This document shows positions 9,146-35,901 of a stretch of DNA of 60,378 nucleotides, piece after piece. The first letter of the stretch is position 1. Each line of letters starts with the position of its first letter. The translations under genes and the position numbers were made by a program. The notes under the pieces were generated by a model. It had not been told where the DNA came from, ran no database searches, and saw only the letters and a program-made list of their open reading frames with translations. Location: positions 157,210-217,587 of the forward strand of contig NZ_ANBE01000014.1 of the NCBI RefSeq assembly GCF_000341145.1. The letters run 5' to 3'. Source of the DNA: Nocardiopsis xinjiangensis YIM 90004 (GTDB lineage Bacteria > Actinomycetota > Actinomycetes > Streptosporangiales > Streptosporangiaceae).

Positions 9146-9147
9146 CC

Positions 9148-11512: not shown

Positions 11513-11522
11513 GTTATTCTGC

Positions 11523-13743: not shown

Positions 13744-13744
13744 C

Positions 13745-19722: not shown

Positions 19723-20856
19723 TCACGTGGCGTGGCGCAGGGCGGCCGTGTCCAGGGCCTGACCGAAGCGAAGCGCACCGTACAGCGGGTAGGCGCGGGC
19801 CGTCACCTGAACGTGCTGCGTGATGGTGTGGGCATCACGCAGACGCCGTTGCAACGGATCGCCGGCGTGGACGGCTGCCCCGCCTCCGAGCTGGTGGATG
19901 CCGCCCACGACCGCGGCGGCCTCCGCGGTCGCGTGGCTCATGGCGAGTCGGCTCCGGGCCCGCACACCGGTGTCGGCGGTGTGCCCGTCCTGCGCCGTGT
20001 CCCACATCTCGCCCATGGCCTCCAGCAGGAAGGCCCGTGCGGAGTACAACCGCGCCTCGGCCCGCGCGGTTTCGATGTGTGCGAGCGAGGACCGTGCGAG
20101 CGTGTTGGGCAGGCCCAGGGACGTGGTGCCCTCCGCGCGGTCGAGCAGGTCGTTGACCGCTCCGACCGCGTTGCCGAGCGCGACCGCGGCGTAGGCGAAG
20201 GAAATATACGCGGTCAGGGGGAACAGGGAGAGCGGGGTGTCCTGACGGGGCCCGGGCCGCCCCATGTCGACCAGCCGCCGGTCGGGAACGAACACGCCCG
20301 GCCGGACGGAGAAGTGCCCGGAGGAGGTCGCGCGGAGGCCGAGCGAGTCCCAGTCGCCCTCGATGACGATGTCCGAGGTGGGTACGAAGGCGACGAGGGA
20401 CCGCCCGTCGACGACCATGCCCAGGCCCATCCACTTCGCGTGCGGTGCGGCCGACCCCCACGGCCACCGGCCGGAGTCCACACACAGGCCGCCCTCGGTG
20501 AACCGGCCCGAACCTCCCGGCATCGACGCGCACGCGACCGGAGCCGTGCCGTCGAAGATCTCTCGGGCGCTGTCCTCGGCCAGGTAGTGGGTGAAGATCG
20601 AGTGTGTGGAGGACGTCGCCGGGTACCACGCCGCGCTCGCGTCTCCCTCAGCCACGGCCATCAGAGCTCGCGCGCTCGTGACCGGATCGATCTCGGGACC
20701 ACCGAGTCGCGTCGGCATACCCATACGCAGCAATTCGGTGCCGATGAGCTCCGTGACGACCTCTTCGGTCAGCAAGCCGGCCCGTTCGCCCGCGTCCGCG
20801 TGGACGCGGCTGACGTCTGCGACCCTGCGCGCGCACTCTATGATCTTCTCGGTCAT
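19723..20856 (-). CDS. acyl-CoA-dehydrogenase-fold flavoprotein, likely monooxygenase-type (azole-peptide cluster)
   Basis: 377 residues, MTEKIIECARRVADVSRVHA onward. Start 20856 was chosen because the open frame runs far upstream through non-homologous sequence. The central region reads VCASMPGGSGRF-like residues, then GRWPWGSAAPHAKWMGLG. This matches the HsaA/HpaB-like branch (two-component, FMNH2-dependent hydroxylases) better than true acyl-CoA dehydrogenases. It is the last gene of the leftward azole-peptide operon, 74 bp after the CPBP protease. A role in oxidising or hydroxylating the modified peptide is plausible. No dedicated reductase is adjacent. Confidence 0.82.
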   Translation of the reverse strand: MTEKIIECARRVADVSRVHADAGERAGLLTEEVVTELIGTELLRMGMPTRLGGPEIDPVTSARALMAVAEGDASAAWYPATSSTHSIFTHYLAEDSAREIFDGTAPVACASMPGGSGRFTEGGLCVDSGRWPWGSAAPHAKWMGLGMVVDGRSLVAFVPTSDIVIEGDWDSLGLRATSSGHFSVRPGVFVPDRRLVDMGRPGPRQDTPLSLFPLTAYISFAYAAVALGNAVGAVNDLLDRAEGTTSLGLPNTLARSSLAHIETARAEARLYSARAFLLEAMGEMWDTAQDGHTADTGVRARSRLAMSHATAEAAAVVGGIHQLGGGAAVHAGDPLQRRLRDAHTITQHVQVTARAYPLYGALRFGQALDTAALRHAT

Positions 20857-20930
20857 ACCCCGATCGAATCGCGCCCGGGCGACGTTGCCCAGTCGTCTCA
20901 TCGGCCGACAGGCGCACATGCGTTCATCCG

Positions 20931-21566
20931 TCATCCGTCCCAGGACCGGCTCGGCGGCAGATCTGGGGGAGCCGCAGGTGCCCTCCGCCGCGAAACGCGA
21001 GCTGTGGCAGACATGACCAGATTGTGCACGTAGTGGAAGAGCGCGGCCGCGAGCACGCCCCCCAGGAGCGCGAGCCCGGTCAAGGCGGCCCCCAGGAGCA
21101 GCTGATAGGGGATGACACGCCAACCGTTGCGGGGAACGTGCAGCAGTGCGAACCCCGCCATCGTCGACATCGCGGCGAGGAGGACGGGTGTTCCGGCGTG
21201 CACCAGGCCGCCCAGCGCGGCGAGTCGCCACAGCGCTTCCTCGGAGGCCGTGCAGAGCCCCGTCCACACAGGGCGCCTGGGGAGCCGCACGAACCTGCGC
21301 GGACGGCTCACCAAGCCGCCCATGACCAAGGGGAAAGCACATCCCAGCACCACCGCGACCACGCAGGCGAGGTGTGTCCAGGCGGTCACCAGCCCCGGAG
21401 GGCCGGAGCCGGCGGCCAGGAGAGCCACGGACCCGAGGGCGACCGTGGCGACCGTGTACAGGCCCTCCGGCCGCTGGCCCGCGAACCGTACCGCTGTACC
21501 CAGTGGGGGCGGGTACCGCAGCACCCAAGGCACGGCCAGGTGCATGAGGGCCAACAGGGCCGTCAC
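20931..21566 (-). CDS. CPBP (Abi/CAAX-like) intramembrane metalloprotease
   Basis: 211 residues with about six hydrophobic segments. The family motifs are all visible: SEEALWR (E-E-x-x-x-R), FALLH (F-x-x-x-H) and FHYVHN. CPBP proteases cleave within the membrane and are known in some RiPP operons as leader peptidases or immunity proteins. Its start overlaps the SagB-type gene's stop by 4 bp, so it belongs to the azole-peptide operon, which has no other obvious leader peptidase. Cleavage of the precursors is therefore inference from context. Confidence 0.85.
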   Translation of the reverse strand: MTALLALMHLAVPWVLRYPPPLGTAVRFAGQRPEGLYTVATVALGSVALLAAGSGPPGLVTAWTHLACVVAVVLGCAFPLVMGGLVSRPRRFVRLPRRPVWTGLCTASEEALWRLAALGGLVHAGTPVLLAAMSTMAGFALLHVPRNGWRVIPYQLLLGAALTGLALLGGVLAAALFHYVHNLVMSATARVSRRRAPAAPPDLPPSRSWDG

Positions 21567-22384
21567 CGGTCGGAGCCGTAGCCGATCAGCACCGCGTAGA
21601 CAGGAGCGTCGTCGACACCGTTGTGGTCCACCATCACCTCGGTGAGCCGGGCGTCGAAGAAGCCTCCGATCGGCCGGCAGGCCAGGCCGTGGGCCGTGGC
21701 GAGCAGGAGAAGATTCTGGACCAGGTGTCCCGCCTCGGTCAGCGCGAACCGCAGTGCGCGCTGACCGTACTTGAACCGCGACCTCCAGAACGAGGCCGAG
21801 ATCACGAGCTGGACGGCCGGCACCCCGGAGATGTTGGGGGCGTTCGTCGCTTCCCTCAGTGCCGCGCCGTCGACATCGCCGAGGTCGGTCAGCGCGTGTT
21901 CGAAGGGGTCGAAGTGGTAACGACCGCCGCTGCGGAGGGATTCGACGCGGCTGGGGAGCACGTAGATGTCCAGGGGATACAACGCGCCGGCGGAAGGGGT
22001 GGGCCGCAGCGAGTGTTCACCGAGCGACCCCGTCACACCGTACGAGCGCGAGAGCAGACTGGAGAGCACTCCGGCAGAGACCTCCCGCTCGTCGAACGCG
22101 TCCGCGCTGCGACGGCTCGCCAGCACCGACTCCAACGACGCCTGTGCTGGAGCGGACTCCGGAAGCGGGAGTACGGGTCTGCCCTCGTAACGCCGTGTCG
22201 ACCGGGTACTCATCTGGCGCATCTCCGCCGAGCGCTCCAGGCGCGCGACGCCCGGCACGTCCCACGGGATGCTGGCGGGATAGATCTTCGATGCCTCGAA
22301 GAAATTCTCGGCGGGGTCGTCCGGTCCGGGGATCCCCGACTGGTAGACCACGTCGACCAGATTGGACGTATCGACCTCGGCCAT
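21563..22384 (-). CDS. SagB-type FMN-dependent azoline dehydrogenase
   Basis: 273 residues from ATG 22384, with an AAGGAG ribosome site. The frame is open further upstream, but that part is antisense to the YcaO end. Nitroreductase-fold signatures typical of SagB/McbC oxidases are clear: SRRSADAFDEREVSAGVLSSL, RPTPSAGALYPLDIYVL, and a late ALTEAGHLVQNLLLLATAHG. These enzymes oxidise thiazolines and oxazolines made by the cyclodehydratase to thiazoles and oxazoles using FMN. It starts 10 bp after the YcaO gene. Its presence means the mature peptide should carry aromatic azoles. Confidence 0.93.
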   Translation of the reverse strand: MAEVDTSNLVDVVYQSGIPGPDDPAENFFEASKIYPASIPWDVPGVARLERSAEMRQMSTRSTRRYEGRPVLPLPESAPAQASLESVLASRRSADAFDEREVSAGVLSSLLSRSYGVTGSLGEHSLRPTPSAGALYPLDIYVLPSRVESLRSGGRYHFDPFEHALTDLGDVDGAALREATNAPNISGVPAVQLVISASFWRSRFKYGQRALRFALTEAGHLVQNLLLLATAHGLACRPIGGFFDARLTEVMVDHNGVDDAPVYAVLIGYGSDR

Positions 22385-22394
22385 GGCCGCTCCT

Positions 22395-23762
22395 TCAGGG
22401 GAAAGGGTGGGGTGTGGGGTTGACGAAGGGCTCGGTACCGGGCTCCAGCAGACCGAGTTCGACGGGGCGGCTGTGGAGGCGTTCACCGCCGAGGCAGCGA
22501 CGGCGGTACCCGGCATCGAGGGGTTGCAACTGCGGGGAGAACACTTTGACCACGTGTCCGCCTGCCTCGCGTACGTCCGGGCTCGTCAGATCGACCGCGT
22601 ACAGGTCGACCCCGTCCTCGTGCAGTGAGGAGATCAAGGCGTCCCGCAGCTCTCCCGGGCTCTCCGACGGCAGTATCGGCATGTCTGCCGTCCGCGAGCG
22701 GGCAGGGGAGCTGTCGAGGAACCGTGTCTTCCCGGTGAGGGCGTTGTTCGAATGCAGCGCGATGTGGTCGTCGAAGTCCTGCACGGTCTCGTCGTAATCC
22801 GAGCCGGGAGCCACGCTCTCGCCCGCGCGGCGTTTTGCGACCCCCCACGTTCGGGTGCTGACCGCCTCTGCGACGGCCTTGGTGGCGGCCGTTACCGGGG
22901 AGCTTGCGGCAGCGGCGCCCAAGCCCAGCGGTACTGCTCCTGCGAACTCGTTGCGCACCACCGCCAGGACGGTGGAGACCCCGCTGAAGGCGCTGAGGTC
23001 CACCAAGGAGACATCGAGGCCGGTCGGCGCGACGTGTTTGCTCATGTAGGCGGACAGCGCCGGGTCCGAGTCGACGTCGACCAGCGGCATCGACAGCTGC
23101 TTGTACCAGGTGATCATGACGGCGTCGCGCTCGACCAGTTCCAGCAGAGCACCCACCAGAGCTTCGTCCGGGGTGCTGCTGTAGGCCAGCCCATTGCTGG
23201 TCGCGTCGGCGATCGGGTTGACGTCCATCATGTCCGCGCGCAGGTAGACCGGCTGCGCGGGGATCCACACGAGGGCGCCGTCGGCCAGGCGGCGGCTCTG
23301 CACCCAGGGCAGCCAGGTGGACTCGGTGAACGGAACACGAGACGCGCCCGTCTGCTCGTACTGCCAGTCGGCGAACGGTTTGTACTGCTTGGGTGGGAGG
23401 CAGTCGAGTCCGCGGTCGGTCAACTCCGACCACGTGCCGTACTCCAAGCGGTCGAACGGGACCCATGCGCCGCTGTAGCGTTCCACCGCTTCGCCGATCG
23501 CGGCCAGCCGCGCGTCCCGGAGGCTGGAACCGCCGCCGCCGTTGACCTTGTTGCACCGCGTCCCGAGCAGCATCCGGGAATCGGCTGCCTCACTGCCCAC
23601 CGAGAACGCGTACAGGTCCGAAGTGTCCCGTGTGCGTTCGAACAAGCGGCGGACGAGGCCGGTCACCGGAGAGACGAAGCCCGACATCACCCGTTCCGCT
23701 TGCTCTGGCGTCGTCCACGGGACGGAGCCCGCCGGTGCCGGTTCGTCGAACGCGGTGCTCAC
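22395..23762 (-). CDS. YcaO-domain cyclodehydratase
   Basis: 455 residues from GTG 23762 (GTGA overlap with the E1-like gene's stop). YcaO ATP-site landmarks are AAIGEAVERYSGAWVP, LLELVERDAVMITWYK and, later, AATKAVAEAVSTR. The protein ends in the proline-rich tail PTPHPFP, typical of azoline-forming YcaO enzymes. It activates backbone amides with ATP so that Cys and Ser/Thr side chains cyclise to azolines. Together with the E1-like partner it forms the heterocyclase acting on the two precursor peptides encoded divergently at 25768 and 26043. Confidence 0.96.
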   Translation of the reverse strand: MSTAFDEPAPAGSVPWTTPEQAERVMSGFVSPVTGLVRRLFERTRDTSDLYAFSVGSEAADSRMLLGTRCNKVNGGGGSSLRDARLAAIGEAVERYSGAWVPFDRLEYGTWSELTDRGLDCLPPKQYKPFADWQYEQTGASRVPFTESTWLPWVQSRRLADGALVWIPAQPVYLRADMMDVNPIADATSNGLAYSSTPDEALVGALLELVERDAVMITWYKQLSMPLVDVDSDPALSAYMSKHVAPTGLDVSLVDLSAFSGVSTVLAVVRNEFAGAVPLGLGAAAASSPVTAATKAVAEAVSTRTWGVAKRRAGESVAPGSDYDETVQDFDDHIALHSNNALTGKTRFLDSSPARSRTADMPILPSESPGELRDALISSLHEDGVDLYAVDLTSPDVREAGGHVVKVFSPQLQPLDAGYRRRCLGGERLHSRPVELGLLEPGTEPFVNPTPHPFP

Positions 23763-24742
23763 TTGTGCGCCTCCTTCGCGAACCAGACCTGCGGGTAGCC
23801 GATGCCGGCGGAGGGCGAGCAACGTTCGCACCGGGGCACACGCAGTACGCGGTGGTTCTCCAAGTCGATCGAGTCGAAGCGCAGCGAGATCGTCGACAGC
23901 TCGCCCGGTACCGTCTGCCCCGCCCGTTCCTGCAGACCGAGCCGTTCCACGACCTTGTCGACGACGAGCCCGGTCTGGATGAGGCGCAACCCCGGGTAGC
24001 GAGTGGAACTGTCGAAGACCGGCCCCACCGGTTCGGCTTCGGCCAGCGCGGAGGAGATCTCTGCGGTACCGAAATTCGAGGCCTTGCGCAGCAGGTAACA
24101 CTCGTAGCAGGCCGACTGCCCGGGAACGACCCAGGGACCGACCGTGGCCTGCCCGCCGTTGAAGGCGACCACCGCCAGCCAAGGGACCTCCAGGTCCTCC
24201 GACAGCCGCTCCGCGTTCCATTCGGTCAGTACCGGGTCCTGCTCATGGCTTCCCACCACGACGGCCGGTGCCGTGATGTCGTCGTCGCGGCCGATGACCA
24301 CACCCGCATCGGTCAACGACTGGTTCAGCTCCGCGTGCAGCCTGCCCGACCCCACCAAGCGGATCGGCCGGTCGCGCAGACGCGCGTGGATCTCAGCGCG
24401 TTCCACCGATCCGCCCGACCGCTGCCACAATCCGAGAACGACGGGATCGAGGTCCTGAGCCTCCGAGCCCGCCGGTGGGGACCCTTCGATGAAGAGTCCC
24501 GCAGCCACGAGCTGCGACATCAGTGTCTCGAACTGGGAGCTCTGCCCTTCGCTGATCTCGGAGGGGTCGATGTCGATCCGTCCGTCGACCGCCCTGTCGA
24601 GGAGTGCAGCGACGAATGGGCGGACACCGGGCGCGGCGCACCGGGTCACGACCCCGCCGTGCCGAACCAGGATGTCCTGGCCTCTGGCCAGAGCACGGGC
24701 CTCCGTGTTCACGAGCCAGCTTCTGCTTCCGGTCTCATACAT
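23759..24742 (-). CDS. E1-like (ThiF/SagC-type) partner, leader-binding subunit of the cyclodehydratase
   Basis: 327 residues. Two Cys pairs, C-x2-C in SACYECYLLRK and C-x2-C in RCERCSP near the C-terminus, form the structural zinc site of TOMM E1-like proteins. The N-terminal hundred residues (VRPFVAALLDRAVDGRIDI, SSQFETLMSQLVAAGLF) look like the winged-helix leader-recognition element. In this family the protein binds the precursor leader and presents the core to YcaO. It overlaps the YcaO gene by 4 bp and follows the NmrA-like gene by 9 bp. Confidence 0.9.
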   Translation of the reverse strand: MYETGSRSWLVNTEARALARGQDILVRHGGVVTRCAAPGVRPFVAALLDRAVDGRIDIDPSEISEGQSSQFETLMSQLVAAGLFIEGSPPAGSEAQDLDPVVLGLWQRSGGSVERAEIHARLRDRPIRLVGSGRLHAELNQSLTDAGVVIGRDDDITAPAVVVGSHEQDPVLTEWNAERLSEDLEVPWLAVVAFNGGQATVGPWVVPGQSACYECYLLRKASNFGTAEISSALAEAEPVGPVFDSSTRYPGLRLIQTGLVVDKVVERLGLQERAGQTVPGELSTISLRFDSIDLENHRVLRVPRCERCSPSAGIGYPQVWFAKEAHK

Positions 24743-24751
24743 GAGAAAGCT

Positions 24752-25534
24752 TCACTTTCCTGAGTCCTGGCGAGATGGGGTGAGACTGGACCGTGCGGAT
24801 CGCAGCAGGTACTGGGACAGGGCCGTCGGTGGATGGCCCAGAGCCTCTGCCAACAGGGGAGAGGGAGCTCGGCAGGCGGCCGAAGTCGCCCACGACATGT
24901 ACTCGGTGCGCCTCGCAGCGAAAACCGGGTCGAACCCGGCCTTCTCCATGCTGGAGGAGAGCACGTCCGGTTCCAGTTGCACGTAGTGGAGAGTGCGGCC
25001 CTGCAGGTCGTGCAGCAGGTCGCAGACCTGGGCCATGGGAACCGTGGCCGGGCCCGTCACGTCGTAGGCCGCATGCCACCGGTCCTGGGTCCGTACCAGC
25101 TTGCCGATCAGGGCGACCACGTCAGCAGCGGCGAGCCACGGAGCGCCTTCCGGTTGCCATGCCGTCAGCAGTTGCCCCTCGGCGGCGTAGCGGGTGTTCC
25201 AGGCCAGTTCCTCGCCGAACGCGGCGCATCTGAGCACACACCATTGTTCGGCCTCGGCCACTACGGCGGACTCCCGAGCCGCCACTTCCGCCGGGAACGA
25301 TCCCGGGCGGGCCCGATCGGCCCCCAACAGTGACAGGACGATCACCGGCCTCTCAGCTCGGATCGCCGACAGATCCGCGTCTTCGTAGGAACACACGTCC
25401 TGGACGATGAGGTCGGCTTCCGCCGGCGACGAGGCGGGTTCGAGCTGATCCGACGAGGAGGCGGCGTTGAGCATCGCTTCGCGGATCGAGTCCCGCGTAC
25501 CCGTGAAGAAAACTCTCGTCTTCGATCCGGTCAC
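24752..25534 (-). CDS. NmrA/SDR-like NAD(P)-binding protein, first gene of the azole-peptide operon
   Basis: 260 residues from GTG 25534, preceded by AAAGGAG. It begins TRVFFTGTRDSIREAM, a strand-loop-helix start with a degenerate dinucleotide loop, followed by RPVIVLSLLGADRA and AYDVTGPATVPMAQVCDLL, the latter typical of atypical NmrA-type SDR proteins. The classic YxxxK pair is not obvious. It may reduce or isomerise the peptide, or be regulatory as NmrA is. It is the operon's promoter-proximal gene, divergent from the precursor genes. Confidence 0.65.
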   Translation of the reverse strand: MTGSKTRVFFTGTRDSIREAMLNAASSSDQLEPASSPAEADLIVQDVCSYEDADLSAIRAERPVIVLSLLGADRARPGSFPAEVAARESAVVAEAEQWCVLRCAAFGEELAWNTRYAAEGQLLTAWQPEGAPWLAAADVVALIGKLVRTQDRWHAAYDVTGPATVPMAQVCDLLHDLQGRTLHYVQLEPDVLSSSMEKAGFDPVFAARRTEYMSWATSAACRAPSPLLAEALGHPPTALSQYLLRSARSSLTPSRQDSGK

Positions 25535-25767
25535 CTGGGTCCTCTCCTTTCTGTCGTTCGTCGCATTGACGACACCGGATCGACTCTCTCAAGCCGGAAA
25601 CATCGAAGGCAAGAAGATGGCTTTCACCCGGTGTCATCTTTTCGGGTGACACGGGGGTCGCCTGTTCGGGTGACTTACGTGGGGCTGTCTCTTCTCTTAT
25701 GTTCGTGTTGGGTGGTCGTGCTTGTCGCGGGCGTCCGTGTTTTGGATAGATACAATCGGAGAGGGCG
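25535..25767. promoter_or_regulatory. divergent promoter region between the azole-peptide operon and its precursor genes
   Basis: 233 bp separating the leftward modification operon from precursor 1. It contains an unusual set of motifs: TCACCCG at 25624-25630, then TTCGGGTGAC at 25641-25650 and again at 25665-25674, the last two 24 bp apart and inverted relative to the first. A related TTCGGGCGTC recurs at 25940-25949 ahead of precursor 2. The spacing suits a regulator binding several helical turns. Before each precursor a TTGTCG...TAGATA/TACAAT stretch (25722-25756 in copy 1) could be a shared promoter, with a CGGAGAG ribosome site. Which of the two nearby regulators binds is unknown. Confidence 0.5.
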
Positions 25768-25868
25768 ATGAACGAACTGTTGGCTGAGGTTCCTGTTGTT
25801 GAGGTGACCCCGTTCGGCGAGGAATCTGTGTATTTCGAGCCGGTGGCAGCGGCCTCCAGCAGCAGCGT
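25659..25868 (+). repeat. direct repeat copy 1 carrying promoter and leader of precursor 1
   Basis: About 210 bp that recurs at 25934-26143 with a constant 275-bp offset and only scattered differences. The unit spans the upstream region, ribosome site, entire leader codons and the four Ser codons, then stops matching inside the core codons. This is a recent tandem duplication of precursor gene plus promoter. Confidence 0.9.
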
Positions 25869-25893
25869 CGTCTGCTGCTGTTGCTGCGCCTGA
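25768..25893 (+). CDS. azole-peptide precursor 1 (41 aa, Ser/Cys-rich core)
   Basis: A short gene encoding 41 residues. The leader begins MNELLAEVPVVEVTPFG, is acidic, and ends in FEPVAAA. The core is SSSSVVCCCCCA, ending at TGA. A run of four Ser and five Cys is the ideal substrate for a YcaO/E1/SagB set, giving contiguous oxazoles and thiazoles. AAA before the first Ser is a reasonable but unproven leader-cleavage point. The ribosome site CGGAGAG lies just upstream. Codon use (GTT, TTG, CCT) is less G/C-rich than in neighbouring genes. It is the natural substrate of the divergent operon. Confidence 0.93.
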   Translation: MNELLAEVPVVEVTPFGEESVYFEPVAAASSSSVVCCCCCA

Positions 25894-25933
25894 TTATATT
25901 GTTTCTCCCAAAAGTTGAGAAGGAACTCGTGTC

Positions 25934-26143
25934 CGCCTGTTCGGGCGTCTCACGTGGGGCTGTCTCTTCTTTTGTGTCCGTGTTGGGTGGTCGTGCTTGT
26001 CGCGGGCGTCCGTGTTTTGGATAGATACAATCGGAGAGTGCGATGAACGAACTGTTGGCTGAGGTTCCTGTTGTTGAGGTGACCACGTTCGGCGAGGAAT
26101 CTGTGTATTTCGAGCCGGTGGCAGCGGCCTCCAGCAGCAGCCT
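25934..26143 (+). repeat. direct repeat copy 2 carrying promoter and leader of precursor 2
   Basis: Second copy of the 210-bp unit at 25659-25868, in the same orientation, 275 bp downstream. Differences in the leader coding part are minimal (one Pro-to-Thr change), while sequence beyond the Ser codons is unrelated in detail. See copy 1. Confidence 0.9.
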
Positions 26144-26168
26144 CATCTCCTGCTGCTGCTGCAGCTGA
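26043..26168 (+). CDS. azole-peptide precursor 2 (41 aa, variant core)
   Basis: Also 41 residues. The leader is identical to precursor 1 except Thr for Pro at residue 15 (VEVTTFG), and the core is SSSSLISCCCCS. Compared with precursor 1, the four Ser are kept, the hydrophobic pair VV becomes LI, the first Cys becomes Ser, and the last residue becomes Ser. Both should be modified by the same enzymes, since the leader is what they recognise. The result would be two related polyazole peptides. Two GC-rich hairpins follow the stop. Confidence 0.93.
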   Translation: MNELLAEVPVVEVTTFGEESVYFEPVAAASSSSLISCCCCS

Positions 26169-26200
26169 TCCACAGATAGAACGGGTACTGCCCGACGGGT

Positions 26201-26239
26201 GGTGCCCGCGCGGAACACGCACCGGTCGGCGCGGGCACC
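26201..26239 (+). terminator. hairpin after precursor 2
   Basis: Perfect 11-bp stem GGTGCCCGCGC (26201-26211) with GCGCGGGCACC (26229-26239) and a 17-nt loop, 32 bp beyond the precursor 2 stop. No long T-run follows. It probably ends the short precursor transcript. Confidence 0.65.
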
Positions 26240-26253
26240 CTCGATTTCCTGGG

Positions 26254-26300
26254 GCCCCGGTCAGTGGCCGTGAGCGTTCCAACGGCCGCTCGACCGGGGC
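26254..26300. terminator. second hairpin between convergent transcripts
   Basis: Outer stem GCCCCGGTC (26254-26262) with GACCGGGGC (26292-26300), inner stem GGCCG with CGGCC. It lies between precursor 2 and the convergent regulator gene and could stop transcription from either side. Confidence 0.55.
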
Positions 26301-26442
26301 ACCGGTCGGCCGACTGTGCCGGATCCATGCGTGGAGTCCCCGCTCCTCGCCGGTCCGGAGCGAGGCCGACGCCGATCATTGATGTCGTACAGGACTGCTG
26401 AACGGAGGCGCGCCCGATCCCGCTGTCGGCCGCCCGTCCCGT

Positions 26443-28683
26443 TCAGCCGTGTTCGGGCAACAGAGCCAGTTCGGCCACGGCTTGGTCGCGGTATTTGCTG
26501 AACAACGGCCCCGCCGAGTATTCGGCGACCTTTTCCAAGCACTCCCTGGCACGTTCGTGGTCACCAGCCATGCGCCATGCTCTGCCTTCGGGCAGTGCGA
26601 TCTCTTCCTCGGCGCTGTACATGCCGCCTTCGGACACGAGAGAACGCGCCTGCTGATAGGTCTCAGCGGCTGCGCGCCACTCTTTCAACCCGGTCAGACA
26701 ATCACCGATGCATCGCAGTGTGAACCCCCGGTACAGCAGCTGGACCGCTGTACTCGTCTCTCCTGCGCGCCGAATCAGCTGTGCGTACAGACGCCGGTGG
26801 ACACCCAGGGCCTCTTCGAAACGACCGAGGGAATGCAGGACCCGGCCATATGAGTTGTATGCGGATACACGTATCTCGAAGAACCCGAAATCGTCCGAGA
26901 GGGCGGCGGCCTGCTCCGCGTGTTCCAGCGCCTCTCCGGGGTCGCCCAGGCGCAAAAGCTCCATGGCCAGGTAACTGTTGGCCCATGCCTGCTCACGGCG
27001 ATCACCCGTCTCGGTCGCGATTGCCAAAGCTGCGGTGTTCGTTTCGAACCCGGCGCGGGGCTGGTTCATGCAGACGTACTGTGCCCAGCCGAGGAAATTG
27101 AGGAGCACGGCCTCCTCCTGCGGGTCCCCGAGCTCTTGCGCGGCTTCCACGCCCAAACGGAACACCTGGTCCCAGGGCATCGCGTAGATGCGGCTGTCGG
27201 AGTACCAGTGCATCGCTCTGCCGACATCGAGTACTTCGCGATGCCAGCCCAGCCGAGCCGCGCGCCGTTGGGCGGGCAGCCAATTCGCGGCTTCCAGGTC
27301 GAGCCAGGCAACGGCCTCCTCACGTGAGGAGAACGCGCCTGTGGGTTGCGCATCGGGCGCACACAACCGAGCGGCTTCGCACGCTGTGTCCAGTATGTGC
27401 CTGAGCAGCCTTGTGCGTGAGAGCTCCTGCTCGCCCGAGGGTTCCTCCGACCGGAGGCAATCATCTGCGAACACTCTGATCAGGTCGTGGAACTGGAACC
27501 GGCCGGGGACGGTGGCGTGCTGCAGAAGGCCGGCGTCGGTGAGCTCCTCCAGGAAGATGTCGACCTCGGCCCGGTCCACCCCGGTGCACACGGCTGCCAT
27601 CTCGGTTCCGAAGTCCACCCCGGGTACGGCGGCCAGCCGCCGGAACACGGACCGGGTCTCCCGGTCGAGGCGCCGGTACGAGAGCTCGAAAGCCGACCGG
27701 ACGCGGAGGTCGCCCGCCGAGAGCCTCCGCAGCCTGGTTCGCTCGTCCTCCAGCTTCTCCCTGAGGTATCGCAGGGACCAGTGGGGCCGCGTCGCCAAGC
27801 GGTTCCCGAGGATCCGGATCGCCAACGGCAGATGTGCGCACAGCGTGGTCAACTCTGCTGCGGACTGCGGTTCGGCATCGACCCTGTCGGCGCCGACGAT
27901 GTCGGCCAGCAAGAACACGGCGTTCTCACTCTTCAACGGGGCGAGCCGGAGCCACCTGACACGGTCCAGGCCCACGAGCATGCGCCGGCTCGTCACCAGG
28001 GTCAGACAACCCCTCCCGGTGACGAGCAACGGCCGCACCTGTGATTCGTCGGCCGCGTTGTCCAGGAGCAAGAGCATCCTGCGTTCGTGCACGAGCGCCC
28101 GGAACAGGTTCGAACACTCGGATTCGTTTTTCGGGGTACGCGAGCTGGGGACGCCGAGCCGATGCAACAGCCTCTGCAATGTGGCCCGGGGGGTGAGGGG
28201 CTCCTCGTCCATCCCCCGCAGGTCCACGGCCATGCACCCGTCCGGGAACTCAGCGGCCAGGTCGTGAGCCGCAGCCACCGCGAGCGCGGTCTTGCCCACA
28301 CCGGGAGGGCCGACCACGGCCACGGTCGCCCCGGTCCCGGCCTCTGCGCGCAGGGTCGCCAGCTCCTCTTCGCGGCCCACCAGGTTCGGTCTCGGGGAGG
28401 GCAGCGCACAGGTGCTCTCCGTGTCCGGGTCCGTTCCGGTACGGCGCCTGCGCATATGGGCGATGAGCAGGAACTCCTCGCGTTCACCGCCTTCCAGACC
28501 CAGCCCTTTCGCAAGTACTTCCGCTGATCGTTGTTGAGCCGACCGGGCACGTCCGCGTTCCAGATCGCGCAGTGCACGGACACTCATGCCCGAAGCCCTG
28601 GCCAGTTGTGCCTGGGACATCCCCGATGACATGCGATGTTTCAACAGCAGTTCTCCGAAGTCCGACGTCCGTTCTCCACCCAT
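26443..28683 (-). CDS. HTH / P-loop NTPase / TPR pathway regulator
   Basis: 746 residues. Residues 8-65 are an XRE-type helix-turn-helix (MSQAQLARASGMSVRALRDL). Around 100-360 is an NB-ARC-like STAND NTPase: Walker A VVGPPGVGKTALAV, Walker B RMLLLLDNAAD, and LPLAIRILGNRLA. The C-terminal 300 residues are TPR-like helical repeats. Such proteins are signal-integrating transcription regulators, frequent in actinomycete biosynthetic clusters. It lies convergent to the precursors and divergent from the LuxR-type gene, so it is a candidate controller of the azole-peptide genes. The signal is unknown. Confidence 0.9.
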   Translation of the reverse strand: MGGERTSDFGELLLKHRMSSGMSQAQLARASGMSVRALRDLERGRARSAQQRSAEVLAKGLGLEGGEREEFLLIAHMRRRRTGTDPDTESTCALPSPRPNLVGREEELATLRAEAGTGATVAVVGPPGVGKTALAVAAAHDLAAEFPDGCMAVDLRGMDEEPLTPRATLQRLLHRLGVPSSRTPKNESECSNLFRALVHERRMLLLLDNAADESQVRPLLVTGRGCLTLVTSRRMLVGLDRVRWLRLAPLKSENAVFLLADIVGADRVDAEPQSAAELTTLCAHLPLAIRILGNRLATRPHWSLRYLREKLEDERTRLRRLSAGDLRVRSAFELSYRRLDRETRSVFRRLAAVPGVDFGTEMAAVCTGVDRAEVDIFLEELTDAGLLQHATVPGRFQFHDLIRVFADDCLRSEEPSGEQELSRTRLLRHILDTACEAARLCAPDAQPTGAFSSREEAVAWLDLEAANWLPAQRRAARLGWHREVLDVGRAMHWYSDSRIYAMPWDQVFRLGVEAAQELGDPQEEAVLLNFLGWAQYVCMNQPRAGFETNTAALAIATETGDRREQAWANSYLAMELLRLGDPGEALEHAEQAAALSDDFGFFEIRVSAYNSYGRVLHSLGRFEEALGVHRRLYAQLIRRAGETSTAVQLLYRGFTLRCIGDCLTGLKEWRAAAETYQQARSLVSEGGMYSAEEEIALPEGRAWRMAGDHERARECLEKVAEYSAGPLFSKYRDQAVAELALLPEHG

Positions 28684-28891
28684 GTCACTCCCGTCGACGA
28701 CTGGACCGGCAGTTTCCGTGATGGCCGAAGCTGCCCCAGGACAGCTCTACCCAGAGAACCGGCGCGGACGCTTGAATGGGGCCGTGCCGTTCGCAGACGA
28801 ATGCCGTGCGAGTTGAAACTCTTGTGGATCATCCGCCCACTGTTCTTCCGAATGATGTACGGGCATTCGGCTCGAGGAGAAGAATTCGATA

Positions 28892-29539
28892 ATGACGTTA
28901 ATTCAAGGGAAGGCCGGCGCTCGCGCATGTCGGGTCGTGATGGCAGATGATGGGTCGGTCGGGTGCCATGGATTACTGAACGCACTTTCTGTCAGTGGGA
29001 GCATGGACGCCACCCGCGTCGAATACGACGCGGGGGCCGTCCTCGGTTCCGTCGGAGACCTGGCTCCGGACGCGGTCATCCTGCCACTGCGGGATGACGG
29101 GGTCGTGAGCCTGATCCAACGGATCCGTGAAGTGTCGCGGGGATCGGTGCGCGTGCTCATCGCCGGTGAGCTGGGGCCCTTGATGGAGCGTTCGGTCTCA
29201 TCGGGGGCCGTTGGCCGTATCACCTGGAATTACACCGTGAGCGACGTTTCGCTGGCGGTGGTGGGAGCTTTGGGGCGTGCGAACGATAATGAGAGCGGAC
29301 AGAGCCCTTGCCTTGCCCGCGCGCCCCAGCTCAGTGTTCGCGAGCGCGAAGTTCTGGTACTGGCCGCGAAGGGCCTCACCAACGCCAGTATCGCCCGCGC
29401 GATTTCGCTCAGTGAATCCACGATCAAGACCTACTGGCGTCGCATATTCAAGAAACTCGATGTGCATGACAGGACCAATGCCGTCGCATCGGCCATCGCC
29501 CGGGGCGCGATTGTTTCGCCCCTTTCGGGGGTTCATTGA
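28892..29539 (+). CDS. LuxR-type regulator with degenerate receiver domain
   Basis: 215 residues. The C-terminus is a classic LuxR/NarL helix-turn-helix (LSVREREVLVLAAKGLTNAS, then STIKTYWRRIFKKLDVHDR). The N-terminal 125 residues have response-regulator topology, but the expected phospho-acceptor strand reads DAVILPLRDDG, with no Asp in the usual place, and no kinase gene is adjacent. It is probably phosphorylation-independent. GAGGAGAAG precedes the start. Its stop overlaps the M20 gene by one base. Confidence 0.88.
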   Translation: MTLIQGKAGARACRVVMADDGSVGCHGLLNALSVSGSMDATRVEYDAGAVLGSVGDLAPDAVILPLRDDGVVSLIQRIREVSRGSVRVLIAGELGPLMERSVSSGAVGRITWNYTVSDVSLAVVGALGRANDNESGQSPCLARAPQLSVREREVLVLAAKGLTNASIARAISLSESTIKTYWRRIFKKLDVHDRTNAVASAIARGAIVSPLSGVH

Positions 29540-30759
29540 TGTCGATGCCTGAAAAGAAGGAAGCAGGCGCTGGGGTGGGTGTTATTTCGAGCTCGGAATC
29601 ATTTCAACAGGAGCTTGTTCGTCTCCGTCGTTCACTACACCGAACGCCGGAGACCGGTCTGAATCTTCCACGGACCCAGGAAAAAATCCTGGAAGAGCTC
29701 GAAGGCCTGGATCTGGAGATCACGACCGGCGAGGGACTCACCTCGGTCACCGCGGTCCAACGCGGCCGGGAGCCGGGCCCGACCGTGTTGCTGCGCGCGG
29801 ACATGGACGGGCTGCCGCTCGGTGAGGAGGGGCAGCACCCCTTTGTCTCACGGCATGCTGGGGCGATGCACGCCTGCGGGCACGACATGCACATGGCCAT
29901 GCTCGTCGGTGCAGCGCGGCTTCTCCACGGGGCCGACTTCCCCGGATCGATCGTGTACATGTTCCAGCCGGGAGAGGAGGGGCACGGCGGCGCTGAACTG
30001 ATGGTTCAGGAGGGTGTCCTCACCGCCGCGGGACAACGGCCGGTGGCCGCCTACGCTCTGCACGTGGTGGCGTCGATGCTGCCCGGCGGTATCTTCGTGT
30101 CGCGCCCCGGAGTCGTTCTCGGCGGCTCGGACACGATTCGTCTGACGGTCCGCGGGACCGGCGGGCACAGCGCGATGCCGCACAGGACCCGCTCTCCGCT
30201 GCCGGCCGCCTGTGCTGTGGTCTCCTCCGTGCAGAACGCTCTCAGCTCCTCCATCGACCCGTTCGATCCCGTGGTCGCCGGCACCACCGGCCTCCATGCC
30301 GGCGAGGCCGACAACGCCATCCCCGACCGGGCCGAGATCACCCTGTCGCTCCGCTCCTTCTCGGCCGAAGCCCGCCGCAAGGCCAAGGAGGAGATCGTCC
30401 GGCTCGCCGAGGGGATCGCTTCGGCCCATGACGTCGGGGTCGACATCCGGACCTGTGAGGGATATCCGGTCACCAGGAACGACCCGAAGGAGACGGCGTT
30501 CGCCGCGGCCACGGTCCAACAGGTCTTCGGCCCGGACCGTTACGTGCAGGTCGCACGGCCGCTGCCCGCCTCCGAAGACTTCTCCTACGTCCTGGACGAA
30601 GTGCCCGGTGCCTACGTGTCCCTGGGAGCCTGTCCGCCGGGGGTCCCTCCTGAGGAGGCGGCCCCCAACCACTCGCCGCGTGCGGCGTTCGACGAGGGCG
30701 TGCTGGGCGACGGCGCCCGCTATTACGCGGAGTTGGCACTCCGGCGACTACGTGCGTGA
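29539..30759 (+). CDS. M20-family amidohydrolase (hippurate hydrolase/IAA-amino acid hydrolase type)
   Basis: 406 residues from ATG 29539, one-base overlap with the LuxR stop; a TTG at 29536 is an alternative start. Metal-binding motifs are MHACGHDMHMAMLVGAA, PGEEGHGGAEL, the His in YALHVVAS, and the late PASEDFSYV. The family removes acyl groups from N-acyl amino acids or cleaves dipeptides in the cytoplasm. Coupled to the LuxR-type regulator near a RiPP cluster, it could trim the N-terminus of the mature peptide, or inactivate it as self-protection. Both are inference. Confidence 0.88.
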   Translation: MSMPEKKEAGAGVGVISSSESFQQELVRLRRSLHRTPETGLNLPRTQEKILEELEGLDLEITTGEGLTSVTAVQRGREPGPTVLLRADMDGLPLGEEGQHPFVSRHAGAMHACGHDMHMAMLVGAARLLHGADFPGSIVYMFQPGEEGHGGAELMVQEGVLTAAGQRPVAAYALHVVASMLPGGIFVSRPGVVLGGSDTIRLTVRGTGGHSAMPHRTRSPLPAACAVVSSVQNALSSSIDPFDPVVAGTTGLHAGEADNAIPDRAEITLSLRSFSAEARRKAKEEIVRLAEGIASAHDVGVDIRTCEGYPVTRNDPKETAFAAATVQQVFGPDRYVQVARPLPASEDFSYVLDEVPGAYVSLGACPPGVPPEEAAPNHSPRAAFDEGVLGDGARYYAELALRRLRA

Positions 30760-32280: not shown

Positions 32281-35196
32281 TCAGCCGCCCCCGACCTTGG
32301 CCTGCGGGGCCGTGCCTCCCGCACGGGTCAGGGTCTGGCCCAGGGTGTGGCTGATGCCGTTGATGGTGGGGTTCTGTTCCACCGCGGTGGCTGCCTCGGG
32401 TGGCAGATGGGACATGATCTCGGCGCGCAGGAGGAGGCGGTGCATGCTGTTGAGGCCGAGTTCTTCGAGTACCGTGTCGCGGTCTGCTTCGCGCACGGAC
32501 ACAGGAGCCAGTTCCTCCACGCACTGATGGACCCACGCAGCCAGCGCTGTGCGTGCTTCGTCCGACTCCAGGCCGGCCAGTGCTTGAAGCCAGTCGGTGG
32601 GTGCGTGGGTTCGCCAGGTGCGCGGTCGGAGTCCCAACGGCGGGTGGGAGCCATCGCTCTGACGGAGGTCATGTCCGTGGGTGTGGGCCCATGCGGCCAA
32701 ACGCGCCGGGCCCCGGCTCTCGGTATCGGTCCCGTCGACGAGGGTCGCCACCTGCACATCCAGGTGGTGGCGGGCGGTGATACGCATGGTGGGCACGGCC
32801 AGCACCGGGTGCGGAGAGAGTTCTGCCGCCAACACCGGCCCCTGGCGGGCCACACACGCCAGGGCCGCCTCGTAGTCGACGGGGGAGCGCAGCTGCCGTA
32901 CCCAGTAGTCGGCGCCCAGGTCCTGCACGCTGGTGGCGGAGACGGTCGAGACCATCTCTACCCGCGGCGGCCGGGCGTCCATCCGGCCCAGTCGGTCGGC
33001 GAGCTCGTCCAGTACCGGTTCGACGGCGCGGCTGTGGGCCGGGGGCGCCGCGGGCAGTTCCCGGGCGGTGTACCCGTCCTGTTCGGCCTGGCCACGGACG
33101 GCCTCAAGCCGCTCCCGGGGGCCAGAGAGCACCTGCAGTGAGGGGGCGTTGATCGCGGCTACCTCCACACCGTGGGCCGCGGCCAGGGTCCGAGCAGTAG
33201 CGTTGTCGGTTTCGAGTGAGATCATGCCCCCGGTGGGGGACACACGCTCCAGTAGTTCGGAACGGGCCACCACCAGTCGGGCCGCCTGGTCCAGGTCCAG
33301 GGCTCCGGCCACCTGGGCGGCGGCCACCTCGCCCAAGGAGTGTCCCACCACCACCTCGGGGGTCAGCTTCCACCGTTCGACCAGGGTGGCGGCCAGTGCG
33401 GTCTGCATGGCCCAGGTGGCTTGTTGGGTCTGGGCCAGGCCTCGAGCCGGCCCCCGGGCCGGGTGCCAGGGGGCCGGGGTGTATCGGATCAAGGCCTGAT
33501 GGGCCTGGTCCATGTGGCGGGCGAAGACTCCGTCCGCGCGGTAGAGCTGTGCGCCCATGTGTGGGTGGGCGGCGCCGTGCCCGCCGAAGACCCACGCCAG
33601 GCGTCCTGTTCTCGCCCGGGCGGGGCCGAGCAGAGCCTCATGGGGGTGCCCCTGTGCCAGCGCCTCCAACCCTGCGACCCCGTCGGAGCCGGGTGCGTGG
33701 ACGAGAGCGGCCCGCCAGGGGCCCCGTCGGTCGGTGCGCCGGGCCAGGTGGGCGCCCACACGCGCCGCGCTGGGCGGGTCGGGGCAGGTGAGTTGTTCGT
33801 GCAGCCGGTCGGCCTGCTCGGCCAGGGCCGCCTTGGAGGCTGCGGACAGCGCCCACACGTGGTCCGGCTGCTGGCCGGCGTCCTCGTGGCCCGGTCGAGT
33901 GGGCGGGGCCTGTTCCAACACTGCATGTGCGATCGCGCCGGAAAAACCCAGGCTCGTGACCCCGGCGCGGTGGGCAGAGCCTGCGTGTGGCCAGCCCACC
34001 TGCTGGGTCGGCACGCGCAGATGGTGGCGCCCCAAGGCCGGGGACGGGGTGCGGTGACCGGCGGTGGGCGGGATGCGCCCGTGGTGCAGGCTCAAAGCTG
34101 CTGCCACCACTCCGAGCAGCCCGGCCGCTCCTTCGGAATGGCCGAAGGAGCCCTTGACCGAACCCACCCACAATGGGGTGTGCTCGCCGCGGCCGAAGAC
34201 CCGCCCCAGGGCACGTGCCTCAGCGTGGTCGCCGGCCCGGGTGGCGGTGCCGTGAGCGATGAGGTAACCGATCTCGTCCGGGTCGACGCCGGCTTCGGAG
34301 TAGGTACGTGCCAACAGTTCCGCCTGTGCTGAGGCGGAAGGGGCGCCGGTAGCTGCCGAGTGCCCGTCGGCGCCGGTGCGCGTGTGGGTCAGCAGTGCGT
34401 AGAGACGATCACGGTCCTGGTCGGCTTCGTGGCGGTTGCGTAGGACGACGGCTACGACGCCCTCACCGCGCACGAAACCCTCGGCTGCCGCGTCGAACGG
34501 GTGGCTGGCAGGTTCCGGGGCCAGGACGGGCCCGTCGGCGAAAGCCCGACCCACGGCGGGGGTGCGGGCTGTGTTGACCCCGATCACCAGGGCCGTGTCC
34601 ACCCGGCCGTCGGCGACGTCACGCCGGGCCGCATCCAGGGCGTACAACGACGAGGAACAGGAGGTGTCCATGGTCAGGAGCGGTCCCCGGGTATCCAGCC
34701 ACCGGGAGAGCGGGGTGGCCAGCATTCCGGCCCCGCCGGCGGACAGGTCCGCCAGCCCGGGGCGGGCGCTCTCGTTGAACGCTTCGACGGCTTCATCGGG
34801 GCTGGCGCTGCCTACGTAGAGGCCGGTGTCGGGCCCGGCCAGTGTGGCCGGATCCAGGCCGGCGTCTTCCAGGGCCTCGGCGGCCACCTCCAGGATCAGG
34901 CGTTGGGTCGGCGAGAGATGCTGGGCTTCGGCCGCCGACAGGCGGAAAGCTGCGTTCTCGACATGTTCGGGGGGATGCAGAGGCGCCACCGGCCAAGGGC
35001 TTCGGGGGCGGTCGTCGGGGTGCAGGCGCCGGGCCATGTGCTCCCACCTGTGCTGGGGGTAGCGACCCAAGGTGCTGGCCCCCTCCAACAAGGTGTTCCA
35101 GAGTTGGCGGGGACCGCGCACCGGTTCGCCGGCGGGGCCGGGCAGGCGCGCGCCGATCCCGGTCAGGGCTGCCTCTCTGGGCTCGGGTCTGCTCAT
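32281..35196 (-). CDS. type I polyketide synthase, single module KS-AT-ACP
   Basis: 971 residues from ATG 35196, overlapping the methyltransferase stop by 4 bp. The ketosynthase (about 10-430) keeps Cys in TMDTSCSSSLYALDAAR and both His (IAHGTATRAGDH, KGSFGHSEGAAGL), though HGTAT and KGSFGH differ from the usual HGTGT and KSNIGH. The acyltransferase (about 510-800) has GHSLGEVAAAQ and, in place of a HAFHS-like specificity box, PPAHS, so extender choice is unclear. The ACP lies at about 880-960 (LEELGLNSMHRLLLRAE). No ketoreductase, dehydratase or thioesterase domain is present. One extension, or iterative use, would give a beta-keto product unless partners act in trans. Confidence 0.94.
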   Translation of the reverse strand: MSRPEPREAALTGIGARLPGPAGEPVRGPRQLWNTLLEGASTLGRYPQHRWEHMARRLHPDDRPRSPWPVAPLHPPEHVENAAFRLSAAEAQHLSPTQRLILEVAAEALEDAGLDPATLAGPDTGLYVGSASPDEAVEAFNESARPGLADLSAGGAGMLATPLSRWLDTRGPLLTMDTSCSSSLYALDAARRDVADGRVDTALVIGVNTARTPAVGRAFADGPVLAPEPASHPFDAAAEGFVRGEGVVAVVLRNRHEADQDRDRLYALLTHTRTGADGHSAATGAPSASAQAELLARTYSEAGVDPDEIGYLIAHGTATRAGDHAEARALGRVFGRGEHTPLWVGSVKGSFGHSEGAAGLLGVVAAALSLHHGRIPPTAGHRTPSPALGRHHLRVPTQQVGWPHAGSAHRAGVTSLGFSGAIAHAVLEQAPPTRPGHEDAGQQPDHVWALSAASKAALAEQADRLHEQLTCPDPPSAARVGAHLARRTDRRGPWRAALVHAPGSDGVAGLEALAQGHPHEALLGPARARTGRLAWVFGGHGAAHPHMGAQLYRADGVFARHMDQAHQALIRYTPAPWHPARGPARGLAQTQQATWAMQTALAATLVERWKLTPEVVVGHSLGEVAAAQVAGALDLDQAARLVVARSELLERVSPTGGMISLETDNATARTLAAAHGVEVAAINAPSLQVLSGPRERLEAVRGQAEQDGYTARELPAAPPAHSRAVEPVLDELADRLGRMDARPPRVEMVSTVSATSVQDLGADYWVRQLRSPVDYEAALACVARQGPVLAAELSPHPVLAVPTMRITARHHLDVQVATLVDGTDTESRGPARLAAWAHTHGHDLRQSDGSHPPLGLRPRTWRTHAPTDWLQALAGLESDEARTALAAWVHQCVEELAPVSVREADRDTVLEELGLNSMHRLLLRAEIMSHLPPEAATAVEQNPTINGISHTLGQTLTRAGGTAPQAKVGGG

Positions 35197-35855
35197 CTCC
35201 CGATCACCTGCCACAGGGCCACAGACCCGACGATGCTCATCTGCACCTGGTCGAAGCGCTTCTCCAGGGCCGTTTCCAGATCGGCCAGGGAGTCGTCATG
35301 ACAGGAGAAGACCTCCTGGCGGTTGAGGAGGCTCAGACCTGCCCGGCTGCGCCGGGTATGCGGGACTCCTCGGGACAGGACGGTGGCACCGGCGAAGCGG
35401 CCCCCGGGCCGCAGGACGCCGGCCACACCATCGAAGACCGCTTCTTTGTCGGTGACGGACTGCCCCGGCAGGCAGTGCACGACCATGGACAGCATGACCG
35501 CGTCGACGCTGTCGTGCTCCATGGGGAAGGGTTCCAGGGCGTTGGCCGGGTGTTGGGTGGGGGTGTAGCGCGCCAGGCGCTCGGCCGCGGCGGTCATGGA
35601 GCCGGGGAAGGCGTCCATCAGGTGCACGGTCAGGTCCTGGCGGTCGGTGCGGTCCAGGTGTCCGCCGTTGCCGGGGCCGATCTCCAGGACCGTGTCGCCG
35701 TCGCGGACGGTGCTGTAGTACAGCCCCAGCACATGGCGCACGTGGCAGCGCCACAGGAAACGGTAGGTGCCGTGCACCACCAGGGGGTCGTACAGGCGCT
35801 GGACCAGGCGGGGGGCCCACCAACGTGTGGCGGGTGCAGAGGTGTCGTAAGACAC
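35193..35855 (-). CDS. SAM-dependent methyltransferase
   Basis: 220 residues from GTG 35855, chosen for its TTGGAG ribosome site; an ATG at 35885 would add ten residues. The SAM-binding loop is TVLEIGPGNGGHLD, and later FDGVAGVLRPGGRFAGATVL is typical of class I methyltransferases. It is translationally coupled to the PKS start (ATGA), so it probably methylates the polyketide or its carrier-bound precursor. Methyl position (C, O or ester) cannot be told. Confidence 0.88.
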   Translation of the reverse strand: MSYDTSAPATRWWAPRLVQRLYDPLVVHGTYRFLWRCHVRHVLGLYYSTVRDGDTVLEIGPGNGGHLDRTDRQDLTVHLMDAFPGSMTAAAERLARYTPTQHPANALEPFPMEHDSVDAVMLSMVVHCLPGQSVTDKEAVFDGVAGVLRPGGRFAGATVLSRGVPHTRRSRAGLSLLNRQEVFSCHDDSLADLETALEKRFDQVQMSIVGSVALWQVIGR

Positions 35856-35901
35856 GGGGCTCCAATGATGACGGGGGCAGGGCAAATCAGGGGATGGGGT
35901 C

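Follow-up and report, generated by a model that had tools for sequence, protein, structure and literature searches.

A probable plantazolicin-lineage azole-peptide gene cluster with two precursors in Nocardiopsis xinjiangensis

Does the azole-peptide gene cluster of Nocardiopsis xinjiangensis YIM 90004 stand apart from described compounds, or does it belong to a known lineage? The cluster occupies positions 19723-30759 of a 60,378-nucleotide stretch of contig NZ_ANBE01000014.1 (hereafter the window), within a genome of 5.33 Mb in 90 contigs. An earlier note, made from the letters of the sequence, had described it as a linear azole-peptide (TOMM) cluster with two hidden precursor genes, a description that enzyme families and precursors confirm. 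The same note had set the cluster apart from described compounds. Here we present evidence to the contrary: the leader, the layout of the core, the order of the genes and the YcaO phylogeny all tie it to plantazolicin. We conclude, with a probability of about 0.8, that this island is a diverged linear azole-peptide cluster of the plantazolicin lineage, equipped with two precursors.

A conserved island with two precursor genes

The island holds nine genes and two 41-codon open reading frames (ORFs). The minus strand carries the genes for an ACAD-fold protein, a CPBP protease, and SagB, YcaO, E1-like and NmrA-like proteins and, beyond the precursors, an XRE/NB-ARC/TPR regulator; the plus strand carries precursors A1 and A2, a LuxR-type regulator and an M20 peptidase. 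The azole-forming set is complete, as had been claimed, and all three members score above their curated cut-offs: the E1-like leader-binding partner C (23759-24742, minus strand; TIGR03882, 39.3 bits, cut-off 36.9), the YcaO cyclodehydratase D (22395-23762, minus; TIGR03604, NCBIfam SagD, 264 bits, cut-off 219) and the SagB-family azoline dehydrogenase B (21563-22384, minus; TIGR03605, 107.5 bits, cut-off 78.4). YcaO ends in NPTPHPFP, which we take to be a functional C-terminus of the PxPxP type, and SagB contains the KY motif, to which we assume a functional role. Cysteines C212, C215, C305 and C308 of the E1-like protein are invariant (4/4) and presumed to form a zinc site. In the proposed pathway, C would bind the leader, D would cyclise Ser and Cys in two blocks, four then five, with two aliphatic residues between them, and B would convert the azolines to azoles. 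This chemistry is predicted from the enzyme families; homology, gene order and selection are established directly by the analysis.

The proposal that two 41-residue ORFs on the opposite strand are the substrates is supported. A1 (25768-25893, plus strand; MNELLAEVPVVEVTPFGEESVYFEPVAAASSSSVVCCCCCA) and A2 (26043-26168, plus strand; MNELLAEVPVVEVTTFGEESVYFEPVAAASSSSLISCCCCS) are each preceded by a ribosome-binding-site-like motif, and after a leader end FEPVAA their cores read A-SSSS-VV-CCCCC-A and A-SSSS-LI-SCCCC-S, respectively. A search of short ORFs near homologous YcaO genes recovered two homologous precursors, at the equivalent place, in each of two other genomes, G030 and G124 (loci L021 and L023). 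Across the 28 leader codons, a comparison of the window with G030 shows 16 differences at third positions, 4-5 at first and 2-3 at second ones, with a nonsynonymous divergence (dN) of 0.10-0.14 and a synonymous divergence (dS) beyond calculation; purifying selection acts on the precursor leaders. Within one genome the two leaders differ by 1-2 residues and are therefore, by these counts, closer to each other than to leaders of another genome. Chance ORFs were considered and are ruled out by conservation in L021 and L023. The coordinates given in the earlier note are confirmed, and its ceiling of nine azoles is to be revised for A2, which has up to ten heterocyclisable residues when the C-terminal Ser is counted. 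Positions 25640-25893 and 25915-26168 form a tandem duplication of precursor plus upstream region, identical at 228 of 254 bases, A2 being the tandem copy of the A1 unit.

A search with YcaO covered 298 genomes from the family and scored five candidates in each; nine genomes, including that of the window, gave matches at E 1e-40 or below. G030 (YcaO identity 75 %) and G124 (72-74 %, in two frames) contain the entire island in unchanged order with two precursors each, with a CPBP match in G124 that is partial in length. Nine genes plus two precursors are thus conserved as an island in two further genera. G049 holds a more distant cluster, and YcaO identity in the remaining five of the nine is 31-34 %. 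When the YcaO alignment was run against 394 genomes of the class, with four candidates scored in each, no genome other than those of the window and G030 reached E 1e-70. The flanks of the island differ: in G124, as read by eye, RDD-type genes lie on one side and a UvrA-like gene on the other, and the window has a sulfate permease gene on one side. Because the genes beyond differ between genomes, 19723-30759 is the conserved unit, exactly the span that had been drawn from sequence inspection. The island appears rare, because a profile built on seven precursors found only A1 and A2, both at E 0.001 among 396 genomes of the phylum (up to 18 candidates scored per genome) and at E 0.01 among 40 genomes of the genus (all candidates scored).

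In G124 the YcaO gene (L023 9393-10735) runs in two frames, which points either to an error in the draft or to a broken gene. If the cluster were cryptic or decayed and made no product, such a split would be accounted for, and so would the finding that none of the island proteins scanned falls into a transporter family. In the window, however, the frames are open and the motifs intact, and the leaders are under purifying selection; decay is a very improbable explanation.

Relation to plantazolicin

A scan of genome contigs with the single YcaO sequence gave no matches; the scan with the YcaO alignment did match, giving 202 candidates, 136 relatives and 80 loci that were kept. Of these 80, 24 were examined with the window's proteins, and 90 loci longer than 4.5 kb, drawn from this and other searches, were examined with six marker proteins. 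The closest YcaO proteins among the kept loci are those of Streptomyces calidiresistens (L031, 67 %), Crossiella sp. SN42 (L032, 62 %), Amycolatopsis suaedae (L033, 58 %), Allosalinactinospora lopnorensis (L022/L034, on the same contig as G049, 45 %) and Longimycelium tulufanense (L035, 43 %). In the loci that follow these five, the precursors are plantazolicin or near copies of it: FEPMAA-RCTCTTIISSSSTF in Priestia flexa and Bacillus safensis, and cores RCTTTTIISSSSTL in B. badius, RCTTTTIISSSSSCW in Auritidibacter, RCTTTTIISSSSCTF in a Propionibacteriaceae metagenome-assembled genome (MAG) and RCTTTTIISSSSCF in a Spirochaetia MAG. These six are referred to as classical. Precursors of intermediate character occur in Longimycelium (FEPTAA-RCTTTTSTCSTCCCSS) and Allosalinactinospora (FEPTAA-RCSSSSTCTCCCTG), while S. 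calidiresistens encodes FEPVAA-ACSSIICCCCS and Crossiella FEPVAA-YCSSIVCCCCSS.

The leader is the first link to plantazolicin. Across 16 aligned precursors the G, F-E-P and A columns are invariant, and the window's leaders are homologous to those of the plantazolicin class, including the FEPxAA end. Profiles of window-type and classical precursors align by hhalign with E 3.6e-7 and a probability of 92.9. TIGR04218, the plantazolicin model, is the best family for all eight non-classical precursors submitted (G124's two were not submitted), with A1 at 8.6e-5 and A2 at 2.3e-5.

Gene order is the second link. The arrangement J-C-D-B-E with a precursor on the opposite strand is common to the P. flexa, B. 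badius, B. safensis, Auritidibacter, Propionibacteriaceae and Spirochaetia clusters, and J-C-D-B-E-L occurs in six of six; in the window it is the ACAD-fold gene that follows J-C-D-B-E. In B. safensis J, C, D, B, E and L come in this order with A on the opposite strand, an order J-C-D-B-E also listed in PMC7617318 (papers are cited here by PMC number). By eye, two ABC-type genes lie between A and J in P. flexa. The third link is a YcaO tree of 23 rows, from which G124 was omitted because of its split frame. The window, G030, S. calidiresistens, Crossiella and Amycolatopsis form a clade (support 100/100). This clade joins two others, the Allosalinactinospora-Longimycelium pair and the classical group of six (both 100/100), in a 13-row clade at 99/98.

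Core layout is the fourth. The pattern given for ten clusters is five heterocyclisable residues, two nonpolar ones and five to six heterocyclisable ones (PMC4603692). The window cores, 4 + 2 + 5 with a terminal Ser added in A2, fit this layout with the first block one short and the residue types swapped, and the first G124 core is 5 + 2 + 5. Like plantazolicin (PznA/BamA, from Bacillus, its relatives and Auritidibacter), the window thus has 41-residue precursors with a FEPxAA leader end, cores composed of an N-terminal residue, an azole block, two aliphatics and a second azole block, and J-C-D-B-E opposite A with a CPBP protease as E. Unlike plantazolicin, it has the block order reversed, from CTCTT-II-SSSST to SSSS-VV-CCCCC (Ser first, Cys last), and Ala where plantazolicin has Arg1; a PznL-like methyltransferase could not be found. 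A flavin monooxygenase and an M20 enzyme are added, there are two precursors, the regulators are of the NB-ARC/TPR and LuxR types, and no ABC transporter lies within the island.

The N-terminal residue and its methyltransferase are where the window departs from the class. Residue 1 is Arg in six of six classical and two of two intermediate clusters; it is Ala in both window cores, Ala and Gly in G030, Gly in both G124 cores, Ala in S. calidiresistens and Tyr in Crossiella. A PznL-like methyltransferase is present in all six classical clusters, Allosalinactinospora and Crossiella. The stretches from Longimycelium, S. calidiresistens and Amycolatopsis yielded none, and with the Allosalinactinospora gene as query at E 1e-8 none turned up anywhere in the genomes of the window (G000), G030 or G124. 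The window cores therefore lack the N-terminal Arg of the class, and its PznL-type methyltransferase was not found. Plantazolicin-class clusters lacking one or the other were, however, already noted in 2015: of 13 members, ten are counted with Arg cores and 12 with a methyltransferase (PMC4603692), and because of this count neither absence is new in itself.

The NmrA-like and CPBP genes had been regarded as unusual additional steps. Their candidacy as novel tailoring enzymes is rejected: because the cluster belongs to the plantazolicin lineage, they are its standard parts J and E. What remains unusual of that claim is the ACAD-fold gene and perhaps the M20 gene. J (24752-25534, minus strand) aligns with plantazolicin J in a set of 12 sequences that includes the P. 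flexa and B. safensis proteins, is modelled with a pLDDT of 89.9 and matches profiles of YtfG (2.6e-13) and an NmrA-family protein (1.8e-5). Used as query, it found 13 of 91 sequences (the 90 loci and the window, with L022 and L034 being one locus) at E up to 1e-6, all from the plantazolicin lineage; J of P. flexa and B. badius matched more weakly, at 2.5e-6 and 1e-4. The confidently modelled NmrA/YtfG-like SDR fold lacks a GxxG motif in the window copy, and J is accordingly probably a helper rather than a redox enzyme; in the pathway its degenerate SDR fold would serve a structural, assisting role. E (20931-21566, minus strand; PF02517, 2.4e-6, above cut-off) is a CPBP, Rce1-like membrane protease and the counterpart of PznE, at the position that the gene has in plantazolicin clusters. 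EExxxR, FxxxH and HxxxN-type motifs, which we take to be the named CPBP motifs, are visible in its sequence. It is the presumed leader protease; leader removal has been assigned to PznE (PMC5100339).

Several observations weigh against a plantazolicin assignment. The hhalign match is confined to the end of the leader and the first residues of the core. A1 and A2 reach 22.4 and 24.2 bits against the TIGR04218 cut-off of 45, which all eight non-classical precursors submitted miss, while the two classical ones submitted score 74.5 and 89.6. The YcaO tree, with its midpoint root and compositionally unusual Bacillus rows, does not resolve the branching among the three subclades. A1 also matches a thiopeptide precursor model (3.6e-4, 20.8 bits, cut-off 25), a match outranked in E-value by the plantazolicin model; A2 has none. 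The earlier note had excluded a thiopeptide for want of a LanB-type dehydratase. A thiopeptide is indeed unlikely, because a scan of ten proteins from the cluster and its neighbourhood revealed neither a LanB-type dehydratase family nor a cycloaddition enzyme.

Sub-threshold precursor scores and swapped residue types could also mean that a separate azole-peptide family has converged on the plantazolicin layout. Such convergence would have to coexist with a homologous leader, J protein and gene order, with the YcaO clade (D being the only tree built) and with the intermediate precursors of Allosalinactinospora and Longimycelium, which combine Arg with mixed cores; it is the least probable of the alternatives, and extremely so. 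A further alternative concerns the number of products. One SCCC(C)-type and one CCCCC-type core are found in three of three islands, despite leaders so similar within each genome, and A1 and A2 might thus give one two-component product, not two independent congeners. The pattern comes from three genomes only, and a single precursor was found in each of L031, L032, L034, L035 and the six classical clusters; a two-component product seems rather improbable.

Candidate capping and trimming enzymes

Which enzyme could modify the N-terminus of a diverged plantazolicin without Arg or methyltransferase? The ACAD-fold gene (19723-20856, minus strand, start at 20856; Acyl-CoA_dh_2, 1.2e-22) closes the operon where PznL does in plantazolicin clusters, and encodes the oxygenase component of a group-D-type flavin monooxygenase. 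Among solved structures Rv3094c comes closest (2.2e-58; by profile 7e-66), and further relatives are carbon hydroxylases of the HsaA, HpaH and XiaF types. A true acyl-CoA dehydrogenase is disfavoured, the best full-length solved matches being monooxygenases. Of 12 flavin contacts of Rv3094c (PMC9904262), read off a pairwise alignment, seven are identical: W80, S138, W174, L179, S184, T347 and H351 correspond to W77, S135, W169, L174, S179, T344 and H348, the last pair being the proton donor. All seven are invariant across three orthologues. The structure model of the protein was poor (pLDDT 53.5, three sequences) and was left unused. Among the 91 sequences the gene is limited to three, the window, L021 and L023, and these account for three of the four clusters with Ala- or Gly-first cores (window, G030 and G124; not L031).

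The oxime of azolemycin depends on AzmF, a flavin monooxygenase. Azolemycin is a linear azole peptide in which this oxime is N-terminal (PMC7136475), and group D flavin monooxygenases include N-hydroxylases (PMC6165268). The likeness to the window lies in the linear azole peptide and the flavin-dependent N-terminal oxidation proposed here. In this proposal E or another protease would cut behind FEPVAA to leave an N-terminal Ala, and the monooxygenase would supply the cap by oxidising the free amine to a hydroxylamine and on to an oxime. We offer this as our best single guess, and as a tentative one.

Three points count against amine oxidation. Five of the 12 flavin contacts (G113, V114, W115, F136 and F352 of Rv3094c) are changed; the closest solved relatives act on sulfur or carbon, not on amines; and S. 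calidiresistens has an Ala core with no ACAD gene on its 13.2 kb contig. A peptide of the same lineage with a free N-terminal amine, whose monooxygenase acts elsewhere (aliphatic hydroxylation, sulfur oxidation or a second azoline oxidation), is a serious contender when all these sites are taken together, if still short of even odds. It draws on the same S. calidiresistens cluster and on the solved relatives, Rv3094c carrying out ethionamide sulfoxygenation (PMC9904262) and the others hydroxylating carbon. It has to accommodate an ACAD gene in the position of the N-capping PznL, Ala or Gly as N-terminal residue and no PznL-like gene found in three of three ACAD clusters, and a SagB oxidase that is already there.

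At the other end of the peptide, the M20 metallopeptidase/amidohydrolase (29539-30759, plus strand; PF01546, 2.5e-34) matches the TIGR01891 amidohydrolase model above its cut-off (265 bits) and the CpsA carboxypeptidase model under its cut-off (4.3e-83), and its nearest solved relatives are YxeP, IAA-amino acid hydrolase and aminoacylase. M20D-type enzymes hydrolyse acyl-amino acids, an activity that would suit cleavage of the Ala or Ser that follows the final thiazole. The gene occurs in the window, L021, L023 and Crossiella, and at a cut end in S. calidiresistens. The last precursor residue is Ala or Ser in eight of eight precursors of these M20-bearing clusters and F, L or W in the six classical clusters. 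Against a link, Longimycelium ends in Ser with no M20 gene within its 18 kb, and because of this the association is suggestive only. M20 would take off the exocyclic C-terminal Ala or Ser; such trimming is doubtful as matters stand. For products with nine azoles and a free amine the calculated [M+H]+ is 1042.167 (A1) and 1070.216 (A2), and with an oxime it is 1056.146 and 1084.195; trimming would lower these values by 71.04 for A1 (Ala) and 87.03 for A2 (Ser). Taken together, these steps would yield an 'inverted plantazolicin', with four oxazoles, two aliphatics, up to five contiguous thiazoles, an oxime Ala/Gly cap in place of methylated Arg and a bare thiazole acid C-terminus made by M20, an outcome that is unlikely in all its parts at once.

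Regulation is represented by an XRE-HTH/NB-ARC/TPR protein (26443-28683, minus strand) and a LuxR/GerE protein (28892-29539, plus strand), both recognised by domain matches and 59-61 % and 48-53 % identical, respectively, to their counterparts in L021 and L023. Between J and the precursors lies an inverted repeat, GTGTCA-N10-TGACAC (25631-25652), a candidate operator that may serve the LuxR or the XRE regulator. A degenerate pattern derived from the repeats of the window, L021 and L023 occurs once in each, in matching places, and had no match in the other six of the nine loci scanned.

Sister clusters, further loci and significance

The related clusters differ in their tailoring genes. Allosalinactinospora and Longimycelium resemble the window in J-C-D-B, FEPTAA leaders and mixed Ser/Thr/Cys cores, and differ from it in an Arg-first core and the lack of an ACAD match. 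Allosalinactinospora, unlike the window, also has the PznL-like methyltransferase and a guanidinoacetate-methyltransferase-like gene (L022 12905-13741, 1.9e-24) that adjoins its Arg-core precursor; guanidine methylation is possible there. S. calidiresistens, Crossiella and A. suaedae share J-C-D-B-E with the window. Unlike the window, they have no ACAD match and carry adjoining deoxysugar-type genes and EryCIII-type glycosyltransferases near the precursor or operon (L031 2334-5754; L032 1249-7783; L033 4470-8039 and 12844-14139), suggesting that these clusters may make glycosylated linear azole peptides. A precursor was sought repeatedly in L033 and not found.

Other YcaO loci carry Cys-rich short ORFs. 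In the next sister group, from Actinomycetota MAGs, these end in Cys runs of the CCCCCCSCC and CCCSACCCCC types (L042 8878-9024; L044 8715-8834 and 8884-9015). In L027 (8056-8196) and L028 (7855-7995), cores CCCCTPCCCC and CCCCTPCCSC adjoin E1, YcaO and SagB genes and recall the Cys4-X-Cys4 pattern of gallolytisin (PMC4603692). The window's own genome has six YcaO hits; short ORFs near three others (L017 6733-6894, L018 19552-19716 and L019 13001-13696) finish with SCGICGSSSCC, with SSPSCGCSCSSLP or with one of three tails rich in Ser, Thr and Cys, and because of these ORFs the genome is likely to hold additional clusters for azole or thiazolyl peptides. Within the window, a separate natural-product-like group (4674-15229) comprises acyl-CoA dehydrogenase, TauD, HMGL-like, asparagine synthase, DUF2332 and AMP-binding enzyme genes, and a lone polyketide synthase module (KS-AT) lies directly past the island near a styrene-monooxygenase-like gene (32281-37224).

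No description of the ACAD-bearing or the glycosyltransferase-bearing clade was found in searches of the openly licensed literature, nor a described product with the cores of A1 and A2; to this extent the view that no known compound has these cores stands, with plantazolicin as a relative. The narrow-spectrum antibiotic plantazolicin requires its N-terminal dimethyl cap for activity (PMC11285071). A cluster that keeps the azole-forming core and changes cap chemistry and ring order would offer a natural comparison of what the cap and the azole order each contribute. If the inverted structure is true, its sister clusters in the lineage have genes for deoxysugar glycosylation in its stead, and these sister clusters are pointed to as possible makers of glycosylated azole peptides. 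More generally, short precursors that score under a curated-model cut-off can conceal members of the plantazolicin class.

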